NCBI RefSeq assembly: GCF_001040945.1
Contig: NZ_CP011930.1
Location: 1,550,001-1,614,000 of the forward strand
Length of the DNA stretch: 64,000 nucleotides
Direction: 5' to 3'
DNA from: Herbaspirillum seropedicae
Lineage (GTDB): Bacteria; Pseudomonadota; Gammaproteobacteria; Burkholderiales; Burkholderiaceae_D
Within the stretch, counting starts at the first letter, position 1, and the number at the start of each line of letters is the position of its first letter. Below the pieces are notes generated by a model. The model was not told where the DNA came from and made no database searches. It saw only the letters and a list, made by a program, of their open reading frames with translations. Of the stretch, positions 36,874 through 49,870 are shown piece by piece. Position numbers and translations under genes: made by a program.

Positions 36874-37628
36874 CGCTGCACTCCCGACTGCGGCTGGCTG
36901 CCACATTGCTGCGGCAGTGGCGAGGGCAACGCGGGTGCTGGTGCGTAGTCCGCCGGCACGGCCTGGGCGCTGAGCCAGCTGCTGGCCGCATTGATTTCTT
37001 CGGGGCTGAGCGCACGCGCGACGGCGGCCATGCAGTCAGGCGTCTTTGCCGTGCGGTCGCCGTTGCGCCAAGCGCCCAACTGGGCATTGATGTAGTCGCG
37101 CGGCAGGCCCAGCAATCCGGGGATGCCAGGTTGGACGCCACCCAGGCTGGGCGCATGGCAGGCGGCGCAGGCCGGCAGGCGTCGTTGCGGATCGCCTTCC
37201 GTGACCAGGCGGCGACCGCGCTCCAGCACGGTGGCGCTGGCCTCATTCGACGCCGGCGGCGGATAGGGGGGATGCTGGTCAGCGAAGAAGCGCGCAATCT
37301 GCTGCAGATAATCGTCCGACAGGTTGGCCAGCAGGTAATTCATCATCGGATAGCGCCGCTGGCCATCGCGGAAGCTCTGCAATTGATTCAGGAGGTAGGC
37401 CTCAGGCTTGCCCGCGATGCGGGGATAGTAGCCATCTGCGGTGGCGCGCCCTTGCTTGCCATGACAGGCGGTACAGGCCGCCATGCGTTCGGCCATGCCC
37501 GCAATGGCAGCCGGAGCAGCCGGCGCGGCCTCCGGGGCCGCTGCCGCCGCCAGGCTGCATGCCATCCCCACCCCTATTGCCAGGACGATGGCTGCCGTCC
37601 CCTTCACTTTGTTATTGAGCAAGCGCAT
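36870..37628 (-). CDS. Di-heme cytochrome c4-like protein
   Basis: 252 residues. A signal peptide ('VLAIGVGMACSLAAAAA') precedes two c-type heme motifs, CTACH and CAACH, in two similar halves, the arrangement of cytochrome c4. It probably relays electrons between membrane complexes in the periplasm, in partnership with the tri-heme protein encoded 4 bases downstream. The C-terminal 20 residues are Pro/Gln-rich. The ATG at 37628 puts the signal peptide at the N-terminus. Confidence 0.88.
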   Translation of the reverse strand: MRLLNNKVKGTAAIVLAIGVGMACSLAAAAAPEAAPAAPAAIAGMAERMAACTACHGKQGRATADGYYPRIAGKPEAYLLNQLQSFRDGQRRYPMMNYLLANLSDDYLQQIARFFADQHPPYPPPASNEASATVLERGRRLVTEGDPQRRLPACAACHAPSLGGVQPGIPGLLGLPRDYINAQLGAWRNGDRTAKTPDCMAAVARALSPEEINAASSWLSAQAVPADYAPAPALPSPLPQQCGSQPQSGVQR

Positions 37629-37667
37629 GGATCTATTGTAGTCCAAGCCTTGCCCCTGCTTGCAGCT

Positions 37668-37695
37668 TTGCAAGCCTGGACGCAGCAGCTACAAT
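37668..37695 (+). promoter_or_regulatory. Promoter of the tRNA-Arg gene
   Basis: TTGCAA (37668-37673), 16-base spacer, TACAAT (37690-37695). Transcription would start near 37702, about 6 bases before the mature tRNA 5' end. Confidence 0.6.
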
Positions 37696-37707
37696 AGCGG
37701 CCTTGCT

Positions 37708-38044
37708 GCCCCCGTAGCTCAGTGGATAGAGCGATCCCCTCCTAAAGACAATTGGGCAGCGGCTGCCGAAAGGCGCCGCGTGAATGGAGTCAAATTCGGT
37801 GAACCCTGACAGCGCCTGGTCCCTGTGACTGCGCGGCTGCTGGCAATACCGAGCCAAGCCGGTCTCCGAGATGGATGGAAACCGGAAGGTGTAGAGACTA
37901 GACGGCTCCGGCCTGCAGGCATGTGCGGTATCAGGCACAGGCCCATGGCCAAGGTATAGTCCAGACCACAAACGTTCTCCGGTGGCGAAAGCCATAGTGG
38001 TATGAAGGGATAGGTCACACGTTCGATCCGTGTCGGGGGCGCCA
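37708..38044 (+). tRNA. tRNA-Arg(CCU), interrupted by a group I intron
   Basis: Exon 1 is 37708-37743 and exon 2 is 38005-38044. Joined, they fold as a perfect tRNA. The acceptor stem is GCCCCCG / CGGGGGC, the D stem GCTC / GAGC, and the anticodon stem ATCCC / GGGAT with loop CTCCTAA (anticodon CCT). The T stem is ACACG / CGTGT around TTCGATC, the discriminator is G, and CCA is encoded. The interruption is after the third anticodon base. This tRNA reads AGG (Arg), so functional expression requires splicing. A short sigma-70 promoter precedes it and a strong terminator follows. Confidence 0.95.
37744..38004 (+). ncRNA. Group I (IC3-like) self-splicing intron in tRNA-Arg(CCU)
   Basis: 261 bases. 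P1 pairs the anticodon CCU plus AA (37741-37745) with UUGGG (37752-37756), giving the required U-G pair at the 5' site. P2 is capped by GAAA (37768-37771). P3 is GGAG (37786-37789) / CUCC (37906-37909), and P4 is UCGGU (37796-37800) / ACCGA (37848-37852). P7 is GACUA (37896-37900) / UAGUC (37957-37961), the guanosine site. P9 is UGGC-GAAA-GCCA (37983-37994). The intron ends in G (38004). Core stretches such as GUGUAGAGACUAGACGGC match the Azoarcus tRNA-Ile intron from memory, and P3 differs by paired changes. It is too small for a homing endonuclease. Confidence 0.93.
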
Positions 38045-38054
38045 GCATAAAAAA

Positions 38055-38082
38055 AGCGCAGAGGGCAACCTCTGCGCTTTTT
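38055..38082 (+). terminator. Intrinsic terminator after tRNA-Arg
   Basis: Stem AGCGCAGAGG / CCTCTGCGCT with loop GCAA, followed by T5. A-runs on the left make it usable by the facing mrcA gene as well. Confidence 0.92.
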
Positions 38083-38135
38083 CGTTTACGGCGTCTCCTT
38101 CAGCCTCTTCCTCTGCATCAGGAAGAGGCTTTCGT

Positions 38136-40604
38136 TCAATGGCCCTGGTTGGTGCTGTCCAGGAAACGCCGGGCGTTTTCATTCGGTGCGCGCGTCCCAT
38201 TCGTCGCCGGTGCAGTGCCTGGGACATTCGGTTCCGGCTGTGTGCTACCCGGCGTAGCCGGAGCCTGGCTCGGCGTCCAGCCGAAGAAGTTCGAGATCGC
38301 ATCCACCACCGTCACGCCCACATTGGTCACCAGACCATTATTCGGGGTGAAGTTGTCGTAGTAGGGTTCGCCATCGATGAAGCGGATGCCTTCAGGCACT
38401 GGCAAGTCGAATTGCGGCACACCCTTCAAGGCCTTGGCCATGTAGTCGACCCAGATCGGCAGCGCCAGCTGTGCGCCGAATTCCTTGCTGCCCAGGCTCT
38501 TGGGCTGGTCATAGCCCATCCAGACGACCGTCGCCAGGGTGCGCTGGTAGCCGGCGAACCAGCCATCGACGGCGTCATTGGTGGTACCGGTCTTGCCGGC
38601 CAGGTCGCTGCGGCCGATGCTGTTGCTGCGCGCACCCGTACCCCCCTGGGCCACCGACTTGAGCATGCTGGTCATCATGTAGCTGTTGCGCTCCGACACC
38701 ACACGCGGTGCGCCATTGCCCACGATCAGCGGCTCGGCCTTGGACAGCGCCTGGCCACGCGCATCGGTGATCTGGGAGATCAGGTAGGGCTGGACCTTGT
38801 AGCCGCCGTTGGCAAACACCGAGTAGGCCGCCGAGAGCTGCAGCGGATTGGTCTGGCCCGCACCCAGCGCCATCGGCAGGTAGGGCGGCACTTTGTCGGC
38901 ATCGAAACCGTAGGTACCGGTGATGAAGTCCTTGGCATAGGGCACGCCGATGTAGTCCAGCGTACGGATGGCCACCAGGTTCACCGACTTCTGCAGGGCA
39001 GTGCGCACGGTGATGGGGCCGGCCGGGGTCTCGTCATCCCTGGGCTCCCAGTTCGGCTGGCCGGGGCCGGCAGGATAGGAGACCGGAGCATCATTGACGA
39101 TGGAGGCCGGCGCAAAACCCTTCTCCAGTGCTGCCGAGTAGATGAAGGGCTTGAAGGTGGAGCCAGGCTGGCGCCAGGCTTGCGTGACGTGGTTGAAGTT
39201 GTTCTGGGTGAAGTCGAAGCCACCGACCAGCGCGCGGATCGCGCCATCCTGCGGCACCACCGACACCAGCGCGGCTTCCACCTGCGGCAGTTGCGCCACC
39301 TGCCAGTTCTGCTTGGCGTCCTGCATCACGCGGATCAGCGCGCCGGGGCCGATGCGTATGTCCTTCTTGGCCTTTTCCGACAGGGCCGACGCCACGAAGC
39401 GCAGCGCCTCACCCTTGATGCTGATCTTGTCGCCGCTACGCAGCACGGCGTCGATCTGCTTGGGGCTGGCCGCGACTACCACTGCGGCCAGGATGTCGTC
39501 GTTGTCCGGATGGTCATCCATCACGTCATCGATGGCGGCGGCGCGGTCCTCGGCATTGGCCGGCAGCTCGATGGTCTCTTCCGGACCGCGATAGCCGTGG
39601 CGGCGGTCGTAGTCCATCACACCCTTGCGCACGGCCAGGTAAGCGGCCTGCTGGTCGGCGGCATTGACGGTGGTATAGACGTTGAAGCCCTGGGTGTAGG
39701 TATCTTCCTTGTACTGCGCATAGACCATCTGGCGCACCATTTCATTCACATACTCGGCGTGAATGTTGTATTGGCTGCCCGGTGCGCGCACCTTCAGTTC
39801 TTCCTTGGCGGCCTTTTCATATTGCGCCTTGGTGATGAAGCCCACGTCCAGCATGCGCTGCAGGATGTACTGCTGGCGGATATGGGCGCGCTTGGGATTG
39901 ACGATGGGGTTGTAGGCCGAGGGCGCCTTGGGCAGGCCGGCCAGCATGGCCGCTTCGGCCAGGGTGACGTCCTTGAGGTCCTTGCCGAAGTAGGTGCGGG
40001 CGGCGGCGGCGAAGCCGAAGGCGCGCTGGCCCAGGTAGATCTGGTTCATGTAGACCTCCAGGATCTGGTCCTTGGTCAAGGCATGTTCGATCTTGTTGGC
40101 CAGCAGCACTTCATAGAGCTTGCGGGAGAAGGTCTTTTCCTTGGTCAGGAAGACGTTGCGCGCCACCTGCATGGTGATGGTGCTGGCGCCTTGCGAGGCG
40201 CTGCCGCGCAGCACGTCGGTGACCAGCGCACGGGCGATGCCGATCCAGTCGATGCCGCCGTGTTCATAGAAGCGATAGTCCTCGATGGCCAGCACGGCGT
40301 TCTTCATGTCGGCCGGAATGTCGTCCAGCTTGACCAGGCTGCGCTTTTCTTCACCAAACTCGCCCAGCAGCACCTTGTCTTCGGACCAGATGCGCAGCGG
40401 CACCTTGGGGCGATAGTCGGTGATCAGTTCCAGCGAGGGCAGGCGCGGATTGATGAAGATCAGGGCATAGACCACCAGCAGCGCGCCGGCGACGCCCAGG
40501 CCAAGGATGGACAGTCCGATGAACTTGGCGATGTTGGGGTTGAGAAAACCGCGCTGTCGGGTGAGGGGGCGGGAATGCGGTCGGGGAAGCGTTGGCAGAG
40601 GCAT
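38136..40604 (-). CDS. mrcA: Penicillin-binding protein 1A (bifunctional class A PBP)
   Basis: 822 residues. A single TM anchor lies near residues 27-50. The GT51 glycosyltransferase has catalytic Glu in 'AIEDYRFYEHGG' and 'GASTITMQVARN'. An OB-like insert follows, then the transpeptidase with SxxK in 'PGSTFKP', SxN in 'KSVNL' and KTG in 'AGKTGTT'. It polymerises and cross-links peptidoglycan in the periplasm. The C-terminal tail is Pro/Thr-rich and disordered. In many betaproteobacteria mrcA is divergent from pilMNOPQ; here its divergent neighbour is uup. Confidence 0.96.
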   Translation of the reverse strand: MPLPTLPRPHSRPLTRQRGFLNPNIAKFIGLSILGLGVAGALLVVYALIFINPRLPSLELITDYRPKVPLRIWSEDKVLLGEFGEEKRSLVKLDDIPADMKNAVLAIEDYRFYEHGGIDWIGIARALVTDVLRGSASQGASTITMQVARNVFLTKEKTFSRKLYEVLLANKIEHALTKDQILEVYMNQIYLGQRAFGFAAAARTYFGKDLKDVTLAEAAMLAGLPKAPSAYNPIVNPKRAHIRQQYILQRMLDVGFITKAQYEKAAKEELKVRAPGSQYNIHAEYVNEMVRQMVYAQYKEDTYTQGFNVYTTVNAADQQAAYLAVRKGVMDYDRRHGYRGPEETIELPANAEDRAAAIDDVMDDHPDNDDILAAVVVAASPKQIDAVLRSGDKISIKGEALRFVASALSEKAKKDIRIGPGALIRVMQDAKQNWQVAQLPQVEAALVSVVPQDGAIRALVGGFDFTQNNFNHVTQAWRQPGSTFKPFIYSAALEKGFAPASIVNDAPVSYPAGPGQPNWEPRDDETPAGPITVRTALQKSVNLVAIRTLDYIGVPYAKDFITGTYGFDADKVPPYLPMALGAGQTNPLQLSAAYSVFANGGYKVQPYLISQITDARGQALSKAEPLIVGNGAPRVVSERNSYMMTSMLKSVAQGGTGARSNSIGRSDLAGKTGTTNDAVDGWFAGYQRTLATVVWMGYDQPKSLGSKEFGAQLALPIWVDYMAKALKGVPQFDLPVPEGIRFIDGEPYYDNFTPNNGLVTNVGVTVVDAISNFFGWTPSQAPATPGSTQPEPNVPGTAPATNGTRAPNENARRFLDSTNQGH

Positions 40605-49229: not shown

Positions 49230-49282
49230 TCTGTGATGGAGTGATGAAGTGGCGAAGCGGTAGCGCGGCACCGGTGGAAATG

Positions 49283-49310
49283 AAAAAAGCCCCGCGGGGC
49301 GGGGCTTTTC
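49283..49310 (-). terminator. Intrinsic terminator of the cold-shock gene
   Basis: Stem AAAAGCCCC / GGGGCTTTT around a GC-rich loop, with an A6 run on the left that becomes the T-tract for the leftward cold-shock gene. Confidence 0.85.
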
Positions 49311-49325
49311 AGAGAAGACCGGGGT

Positions 49326-49532
49326 TTAGGCGGCGTTCTGGATGTTCGATGCTTGCTTGCCCTTCGGGCCTTGCGTGACGTCAAACTGGACTTTTTGACC
49401 TTCTTTCAGGGTCTTGAAGCCGTTCATCTGGATTGCGGAGAAGTGGGCGAACAGATCTTCGCCGCCGTCATCCGGAGTGATAAAGCCGAAGCCTTTGGAA
49501 TCGTTGAACCACTTGACAGTACCTGTTGCCAT
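49326..49532 (-). CDS. cspA: Cold-shock protein, CspA family
   Basis: 68 residues, a single OB-fold cold-shock domain with RNP1 'KGFGFITP' and RNP2 'DLFAHFSAI'. It binds single-stranded RNA/DNA and melts RNA secondary structure. The ATG giving [10 protein letters not shown] matches the family; it follows GAAAGATGC. The long AT-rich upstream region (338 bases to clpS) may include the structured leader typical of cspA-like genes. Which Csp paralogue it is cannot be told. Confidence 0.96.
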
Positions 49533-49870
49533 AAAAGCATCTTTCAAATATAAACTATCACACGAGCCGTTAAAGCAAGAAACATCGCGCGTCACGCAGC
49601 CCCACTTAAACCGTGCCCCCTTCTATCGGCCAACAGTAACAAGATGTAACTGATTTCCGATGAAATTCCATTGTTCTCGGTCGAAATGCAAAAGTCAAGC
49701 TGTTTTCAGATTTAAGTTTGTAGGCTTGTTTGTTTGATGGGGGACGCTCCCCTTGATTTAGGATAAATCATCGTCATCTGCGCAAGGTCCGGAAAACGCG
49801 TAATATCTATCTCATCTAGATCTTACGTGATCATTGTGCGTTGCACAGCTTATGATGGTCGAACAAACGC
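49533..49870. other. Divergent region between cspA and clpS, 338 bases
   Basis: No gene. It contains GGGGA-CGC-TCCCC (about 49742-49752) and immediately TGATTTA-GGA-TAAATCA (49754-49770), a perfect 7-bp inverted repeat with a 3-base centre. An AT-rich block follows at 49800-49830. Promoters of both genes must be here, but no consensus pair stands out. Confidence 0.5.

Follow-up and report, generated by a model that had tools for sequence, protein, structure and literature searches.

The split tRNA-Arg(CCU) gene of Herbaspirillum seropedicae raises two questions: whether the sequence that interrupts its anticodon loop is a group I intron that leaves a working tRNA, and how such an intron came to lie there. 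Our reading, to which we give a probability of roughly 95%, is that the gene contains a small IC3-like group I ribozyme, which would be excised to give a working tRNA.

Identification of the split gene

Within the window, that is, the whole 64-kb stretch of DNA analysed, an original prediction made from the letters alone had placed at 37708..38044 a tRNA-Arg(CCU) split after U36 by a 261-nt intron. With introns allowed, ARAGORN calls a tRNA-Arg (cct) that spans 37708-38044 (+) and is broken after nucleotide 36 (U36) by a 261-nt intron, and this result, together with the empty-site genes of congeners, confirms the placement to the base. The parts of the locus, all on the plus strand, are:

37668..37695 (+), sigma-70-like promoter, TTGCAA / 16 nt / TACAAT, ending 12 nt from the tRNA (consensus scan)
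37708..37743 (+), 5' exon, positions 1-36 of tRNA-Arg(CCU), ending with the anticodon CCU (ARAGORN with introns)
37744..38004 (+), group I intron, 261 nt, its last base the terminal G at 38004 (ARAGORN, RF00028, covariation, model R1)
38005..38044 (+), 3' exon of tRNA-Arg(CCU), CCA encoded at 38042-38044 (ARAGORN, uninterrupted congener genes)
38049..38082 (+), intrinsic terminator-like hairpin with a U run (fold of the flank)

Removal of the intron gives a 76-nt cloverleaf with anticodon CCU (ARAGORN), and no plus-strand reading frame of at least 80 aa overlaps 37744-38004. The gene had been described as easily missed by tRNA finders, and default ARAGORN indeed finds no tRNA anywhere in the 64-kb window, while Rfam, run over the window at its gathering scores, reports a cspA leader and nothing else, missing the intron; tRNA inventories made with these tools would therefore lack tRNA-Arg(CCU). 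The leader is a separate feature, a match to the cspA thermoregulator element (RF01766, 88.7 bits) at 49282-49654 (-) that runs into what looks by eye like a cold-shock-type coding start.

A consensus promoter scan of 37560-38160 gave two overlapping matches where 0.2 were expected, a result that by itself is no proof of function. The fold of 38045-38095 has z = -6.27, with none of 200 shuffles equally stable, and the hairpin is absent from the output of a consensus terminator scan. Given a promoter 12 nt upstream and a strong U-run hairpin after the CCA, the locus looks like a single-gene transcription unit with a putative promoter of its own.

Structure of the intron

The original prediction had described a P1, a P2 and P9 capped by GAAA, a P3, a P4, a guanosine site in P7 and a terminal G, and each is present where it was described. 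The hallmarks of a group I intron are in place: a P3-P9 core with a P3/P7 pseudoknot, the U.G pair of P1, the terminal G and the G-C site in P7. The elements, on the plus strand, are:

37741..37756 (+), P1, exon CCU 37741-37743 with guide GGG 37754-37756, U.G at the splice site (sequence)
37759..37779 (+), P2 hairpin, GAAA loop at 37768-37771 (sequence, alignment)
37786..37791 (+), P3 5' strand GGAGUC, partner 37904-37909 (6/6 pairs formed in 17/17 introns)
37796..37801 (+), P4 5' strand UCGGUG (99% of cells paired)
37894..37900 (+), P7 5' strand, guanosine site G37896-C37961, bulged A37895 (6/6 pairs in 17/17)
37904..37909 (+), P3 3' strand GGCUCC (covariation)
37910..37950 (+), P8 stem, 37910-37913 with 37947-37950 (3/4 pairs changed on both sides)
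37957..37962 (+), P7 3' strand UAGUCC (covariation)
37965..38001 (+), P9.0-like stem ACCAC/GUGGU around the P9 hairpin (37983-37994, GAAA loop) (covariation)

The core was assessed by aligning 17 introns of the same bacterial family, hosted by nine Arg, one Ser, three Leu and four Ile tRNAs, over the stretch that begins with P3 and runs to the 3' end. The 43 pairs counted were drawn by hand on the window copy, which therefore fits them by construction; across all 17 introns 96.9% of cells are paired, and 25 of the 43 pairs have changed on both sides (shuffled mean 14.3, with 0 of 500 shuffles as high). When partners were slid by one to three columns pairing fell to 25-44% (maximum 43.5%), a control that is biased toward a structure drawn on one row, the 17 rows also being related to each other. 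Pairs changed on both sides occur in each of P3, P6, P7 and P8, including four of six in P3 and three of six in P7; P9 is paired in 100% of cells and the P9.0-like stem in 86.1%. G37896-C37961 is G-C in 17/17 introns, and we take it, from general knowledge of group I introns, to be the guanosine site. The compensating change in P3 that had been proposed (GGAG/CUCC here, GGUG/CACC in Azoarcus) holds against two tRNA-Ile(CAU) introns inserted after U36, neither named Azoarcus. Covariation supports the group I core fold.

The unconstrained minimum-energy fold is no better than that of shuffles (z = -1.33) and lends no support of its own. A covariance search with RF00028 had been suggested as a check, and at a permissive threshold the model does match 37783-37910 (P3-P7; E = 4e-4 for a 551-base stretch), but with 24.4 bits it falls below the gathering score of 50; no other place in the 5.51-Mb genome matches RF00028 at E <= 0.001 (here E = 9.5e-4 on the scale of the genome). 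In the part of PMC6125680 available, its authors consider a single alignment such as RF00028 unlikely to capture structural diversity well.

We call the intron IC3-like. Its P2 and P9 carry GAAA loops, and it aligns over its full length with tRNA-Ile(CAU) introns; the subgroup label itself is taken from general knowledge of such introns and from the Azoarcus ribozyme, which is called IC3 at the start of the abstract of PMC4498298 and in a reference title in PMC3984707.

Pairing of guide and exon

The formation of P1 with the anticodon itself had been singled out as a feature of this intron. The CCU/GGG pairing is present, extended by AA 37744-37745 paired with UU 37752-37753, but it is not special: of 146 full-length introns, all but one could be assigned to a host tRNA, and in 141 of these 145 a three-base guide matches the host's own exon, so that a P1 made with anticodon-loop bases is general to such introns. 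In 500 shuffles of exon ends the mean was 89.7 matches and the maximum 103, figures to be taken as an indication and not as a probability, since the search for the guide took in the whole initial part of each intron and all introns of a given host have one exon end in common. Lengthening the guide by one exon base leaves no signal (48/145, shuffled mean 38.3, maximum 54); in Arg introns, P1 mostly pairs just the three anticodon bases of the exon. Separately, four tRNA-Leu(CAA) introns (L116, L147, L173, L179) have C as the last base of the 5' exon, so that the pair at the splice site would be C-G where U.G is usual, and L131 is an ambiguous fifth case of this type.

A working gene or a dead copy

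In the splicing pathway that we propose, folding of the precursor would pair GGG of the intron with the anticodon CCU and place the U.G pair of P1 at the splice site. Guanosine bound at the G-C pair of P7 would attack after U36, and the freed U36 would then attack behind the terminal G (38004). In this second step U36 would be ligated to A37 and the 261-nt intron set free, leaving a mature tRNA of 76 nt that would read AGG. Transcription from the gene's own promoter, the chemistry of splicing and its occurrence in the cell are inferred.

What speaks for this pathway is the contrast between exons and intron. Across the 24 Herbaspirillum genomes that carry the intron, 75 of the 76 exon bases stay constant (there is one variable position in the 40-nt 3' exon and none in the 36-nt 5' exon), while the 276 pairs of introns have a mean identity of 74% and a lowest of 59%, gaps being scored as differences. 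When split and whole genes of the genus are counted together, 32 of 33 share the same 5' exon. Constant exons around a fast-changing insert are the pattern of a spliced, working gene, with no sign of a pseudogene.

The split gene might instead be a dead copy, whose intron no longer splices and whose codon is read by tRNA-Arg(UCU) alone. An intact tRNA-Arg(UCU) is present elsewhere in the same genome; such a tRNA could read AGG by wobble, and failed splicing of tRNA-Arg(CCU) need not be lethal. A further hint in this direction is that an extra hairpin after P7 (CAGA/UCUG in G116) appears reduced in the window copy, on a by-eye reading of the alignment. Against these points stand the exons, held constant while their introns diverge, and the core helices, which the window sequence retains; we consider a dead copy very improbable. 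A second, uninterrupted tRNA-Arg(CCU), which had been named as the finding that would make this copy a pseudogene, was not found in a pattern search of the organism's own genome: the loose anticodon-to-T-loop pattern, which would miss a copy with other loop letters, hit 27 places, and default ARAGORN recognised no tRNA at any of them. From the sequence evidence, the intron in tRNA-Arg(CCU) is real and almost certainly functional.

According to the portion of PMC7717549 available, group I introns in vivo are presumed to depend in some measure on protein cofactors, and the intron might accordingly be a group I ribozyme in fold that depends on a host protein for splicing in the cell. The same source reports that the Bartonella relative self-splices in vitro, and we find such a dependence rather unlikely.

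Presence and absence in Herbaspirillum

The whole gene was searched against 34 Herbaspirillum genomes, including that of the window. The intron is present in 24, the gene is uninterrupted (two abutting exon matches) in nine, and one genome, which is 63% complete, has neither; none of the 34 has both forms. Uninterrupted genes from four of the nine genomes equal the joined exons of the window base for base, which fixes the splice junction. Herbaspirillum thus offers a natural series of presence and absence with nearly identical exons. In three genomes (G203, G211, G216; loci L112, L110, L111) another tRNA also carries an intron of the family, Ile(CAU) in two cases and Leu(UAA) in one.

The same penicillin-binding-protein gene lies downstream at 28 of 33 loci, and a midpoint-rooted tree of this neighbour (21 loci with the intron and seven empty; the empty G205 and G214 are not included) requires at least two changes of state: the intron occurs on both sides of the root, is missing in a clade of eight and is back in G206, a member of that clade. 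Over four 100-nt steps, the upstream flank of G206 is 77-94% identical to that of its empty sister G196, as against 39-60% to that of the intron-bearing G197. Together, the neighbour tree and this flank imply either about five precise losses or one loss followed by a regain within the gene itself. The intron tree, which pairs G206 with G197 (support 92/90), is compatible with both repeated loss and regain. Within the genus, then, the intron looks to have been passed on mostly together with its gene, one clade having lost it precisely or lost and regained it.

The wider intron family

A model (R1) was built from the 17 aligned introns and gives the window intron, itself among the rows used, 174.1 bits. 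At E <= 0.001 its matches lie in 62 of the 392 genomes searched from the family, 42 of the 398 from the phylum, 42 of the 250 from the organism's own order and 38 of the 249 from an order in another class; these genome sets overlap, and the search filters lose weak matches. In another genus of the same family (three genomes) there is an Arg intron with 75-76% identity across the whole gene. A 21-base core string, chosen from the Herbaspirillum lineage and therefore giving no census, was found at 36 named genome loci. Introns of Arg(CCU) account for 32 of them (30 assigned by ARAGORN, two by further comparison); three others sit in tRNAs for Arg(UCU) or Leu, and one has no tRNA assignment. The 32 carry the labels Herbaspirillum, Variovorax, Xylophilus and Curvibacter and, for metagenome-assembled genomes, Polaromonas, Ramlibacter, Duganella, Corallincola, Parasulfuritortus and others.

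The family extends to several other tRNAs, each with matching three-base guides: Ser UGA (L046, L374, L376, L388), Thr UGU (L113, L114), Thr GGU (L357-L360, L362, L368, L369) and Arg UCU (L145, L187, L198). None of these hosts is among the tRNAs named in the cited literature, in the parts available: Leu(UAA), Arg(CCU), Ile(CAU) and fMet. A second class of tRNA-Ile(CAU) intron lies after U33, before the anticodon (L050, L054, L110, L126, L130, L132 and others), and forms a clade separate from those after U36.

Viral sequences also contain such introns, in at least 81 sources: 80 or more IMG/VR loci (among those listed, L227-L306) and Agrobacterium phage Atu_ph07 (L347, NC_042013.1). Viral contigs may contain host DNA. 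Among the viral matches listed, 62 of 85 R1 matches receive a tRNA assignment, a few of them doubtful, and 23 receive none; the assignments include Leu(UAA) 39 times, Arg(UCU) nine and Lys(UUU) five. In Atu_ph07 the intron-bearing tRNA, at 2246-2607 of the locus, is missing from the annotation. A 2014 review, in the part available (PMC3984707), places all phage introns then known in protein-coding genes.

Origin of the intron

The original prediction offered shared ancestry or transfer between alpha- and betaproteobacteria as the two explanations, a choice that is unsupported as put: our best trees separate the two groups of Arg introns. Trees were made of 97 introns without P1 and P2, and a second of 100 introns; 'alpha' here denotes genomes that belong to a different class within the phylum. 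In both trees the Arg(CCU) introns of the alpha set, 11 and 14 rows respectively with one from a viral contig, form one group (support 97/86 and 87/86) that sits among alpha Leu(UAA) introns and, in the 100-row tree, Thr(GGU) introns also. The beta/gamma Arg introns (24 and 25 rows) fall on the opposite side, where the Leu, Ser(UGA) and Ile(CAU, site 36) introns of beta/gamma genomes also lie, and do not form one clade there. The branch between the alpha-rich and beta/gamma sides has a support of 100/97 in the 100-row tree, and the split is unclean. Both trees place the Ile(CAU, site 33) and Thr(UGU) introns of beta/gamma genomes on the alpha-rich side, and the 97-row tree has two Leu introns, one alpha and one from a phage, on the beta side.

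Transfer of the Herbaspirillum intron from an alpha tRNA-Arg(CCU) intron, or descent of both from one Arg intron, would account for the shared site, guide (GGG) and host tRNA. Formal comparison of the tRNA-Arg(CCU) introns by tree, which had been proposed, bears on this with mixed results: a single clade of all Arg introns is rejected with 97 rows (p 0.008), but not with 82 rows after removal of long branches (p 0.169), with 100 rows (p 0.056) or with 100 rows reduced to one strand of each helix (p 0.269). A clade of 12 Herbaspirillum-type and 14 alpha Arg introns is rejected (p 0.023), this group having been chosen after the tree was seen. Neither a single clade of the 24 beta/gamma Arg introns (p 0.44) nor one of the alpha Arg rows in the one-strand set (p 0.263) is rejected. 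With the alpha Arg introns placed among alpha Leu(UAA) and Thr(GGU) introns across a strongly supported branch, transfer or a single Arg origin seems unlikely, and separate invasion of the CCU site in alpha and in beta/gamma lineages is, on these trees, the probable history. A fuller scenario, in which a tRNA-specialised family switches between identities (Leu, Arg, Ile, Ser, Thr, Lys) through changes in its three-base guide and has phage tRNA genes among its reservoirs, may underlie these separate invasions, and we put it forward tentatively, at a little short of even odds. With many tRNA identities and viral contigs represented in the wider family, how small introns find new tRNAs becomes testable.

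Comparison with known introns

We found no report of group I introns in Herbaspirillum tRNAs, nor of tRNA-Arg group I introns in proteobacteria considered together with Azoarcus, in a full-text search that covers few of the subscription papers. The intron is a well-supported member of an established type of bacterial intron and not a novel type of element; that we found none described from this lineage does not establish novelty.

Agrobacterium is where the family was first observed, according to the sources in part available, and the direct precedents are the tRNA-Arg(CCU) group I introns of Agrobacterium tumefaciens and of Bartonella bacilliformis (BbgpI), as given in an excerpt of PMC7717549. 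BbgpI occupies the same tRNA as the Herbaspirillum intron and is described there as flanked by CCT repeats. The sporadic distribution of the Herbaspirillum introns recalls the title of Paquin et al. 1999, cited in the same source.

The likeness to alpha tRNA-Arg(CCU) and to tRNA-Ile(CAU) introns that had been noticed at the outset is supported by alignment and by the same insertion site. The alpha Arg introns compared here, a set that excludes those of Agrobacterium and Bartonella themselves, also lie after U36 and use the guide GGG, but the letters of their P3 and P8 are unlike those of Herbaspirillum, and the best trees group them with alpha Leu and Thr introns. The tRNA-Ile(CAU) introns after U36 have the same core and a GAAA-capped P9 and fall on the same side of the tree as the Herbaspirillum intron; they differ in their guide (GUG for CAU) and in a shorter 3' part that lacks the extra hairpin after P7, and they form a clade of their own (support 100/100). 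The Azoarcus intron, which we take to be a member of this type, is compared by type and not by its own sequence. Introns of tRNA-Ile2 are reported in Acidovorax and Burkholderia in the available part of PMC8450103.

The portion of PMC4033280 available records tRNA group I introns from cyanobacteria and a few alpha- and betaproteobacteria, and tRNA-Leu(UAA) introns from cyanobacteria and plastids. The tRNA-Leu(UAA) introns in our comparison, from proteobacteria and one cyanobacterium (L220), belong to the same small tRNA-intron family and have a matching guide; unlike the Herbaspirillum intron, with its U36 site and GGG guide, they are inserted after U34 and use GAG.
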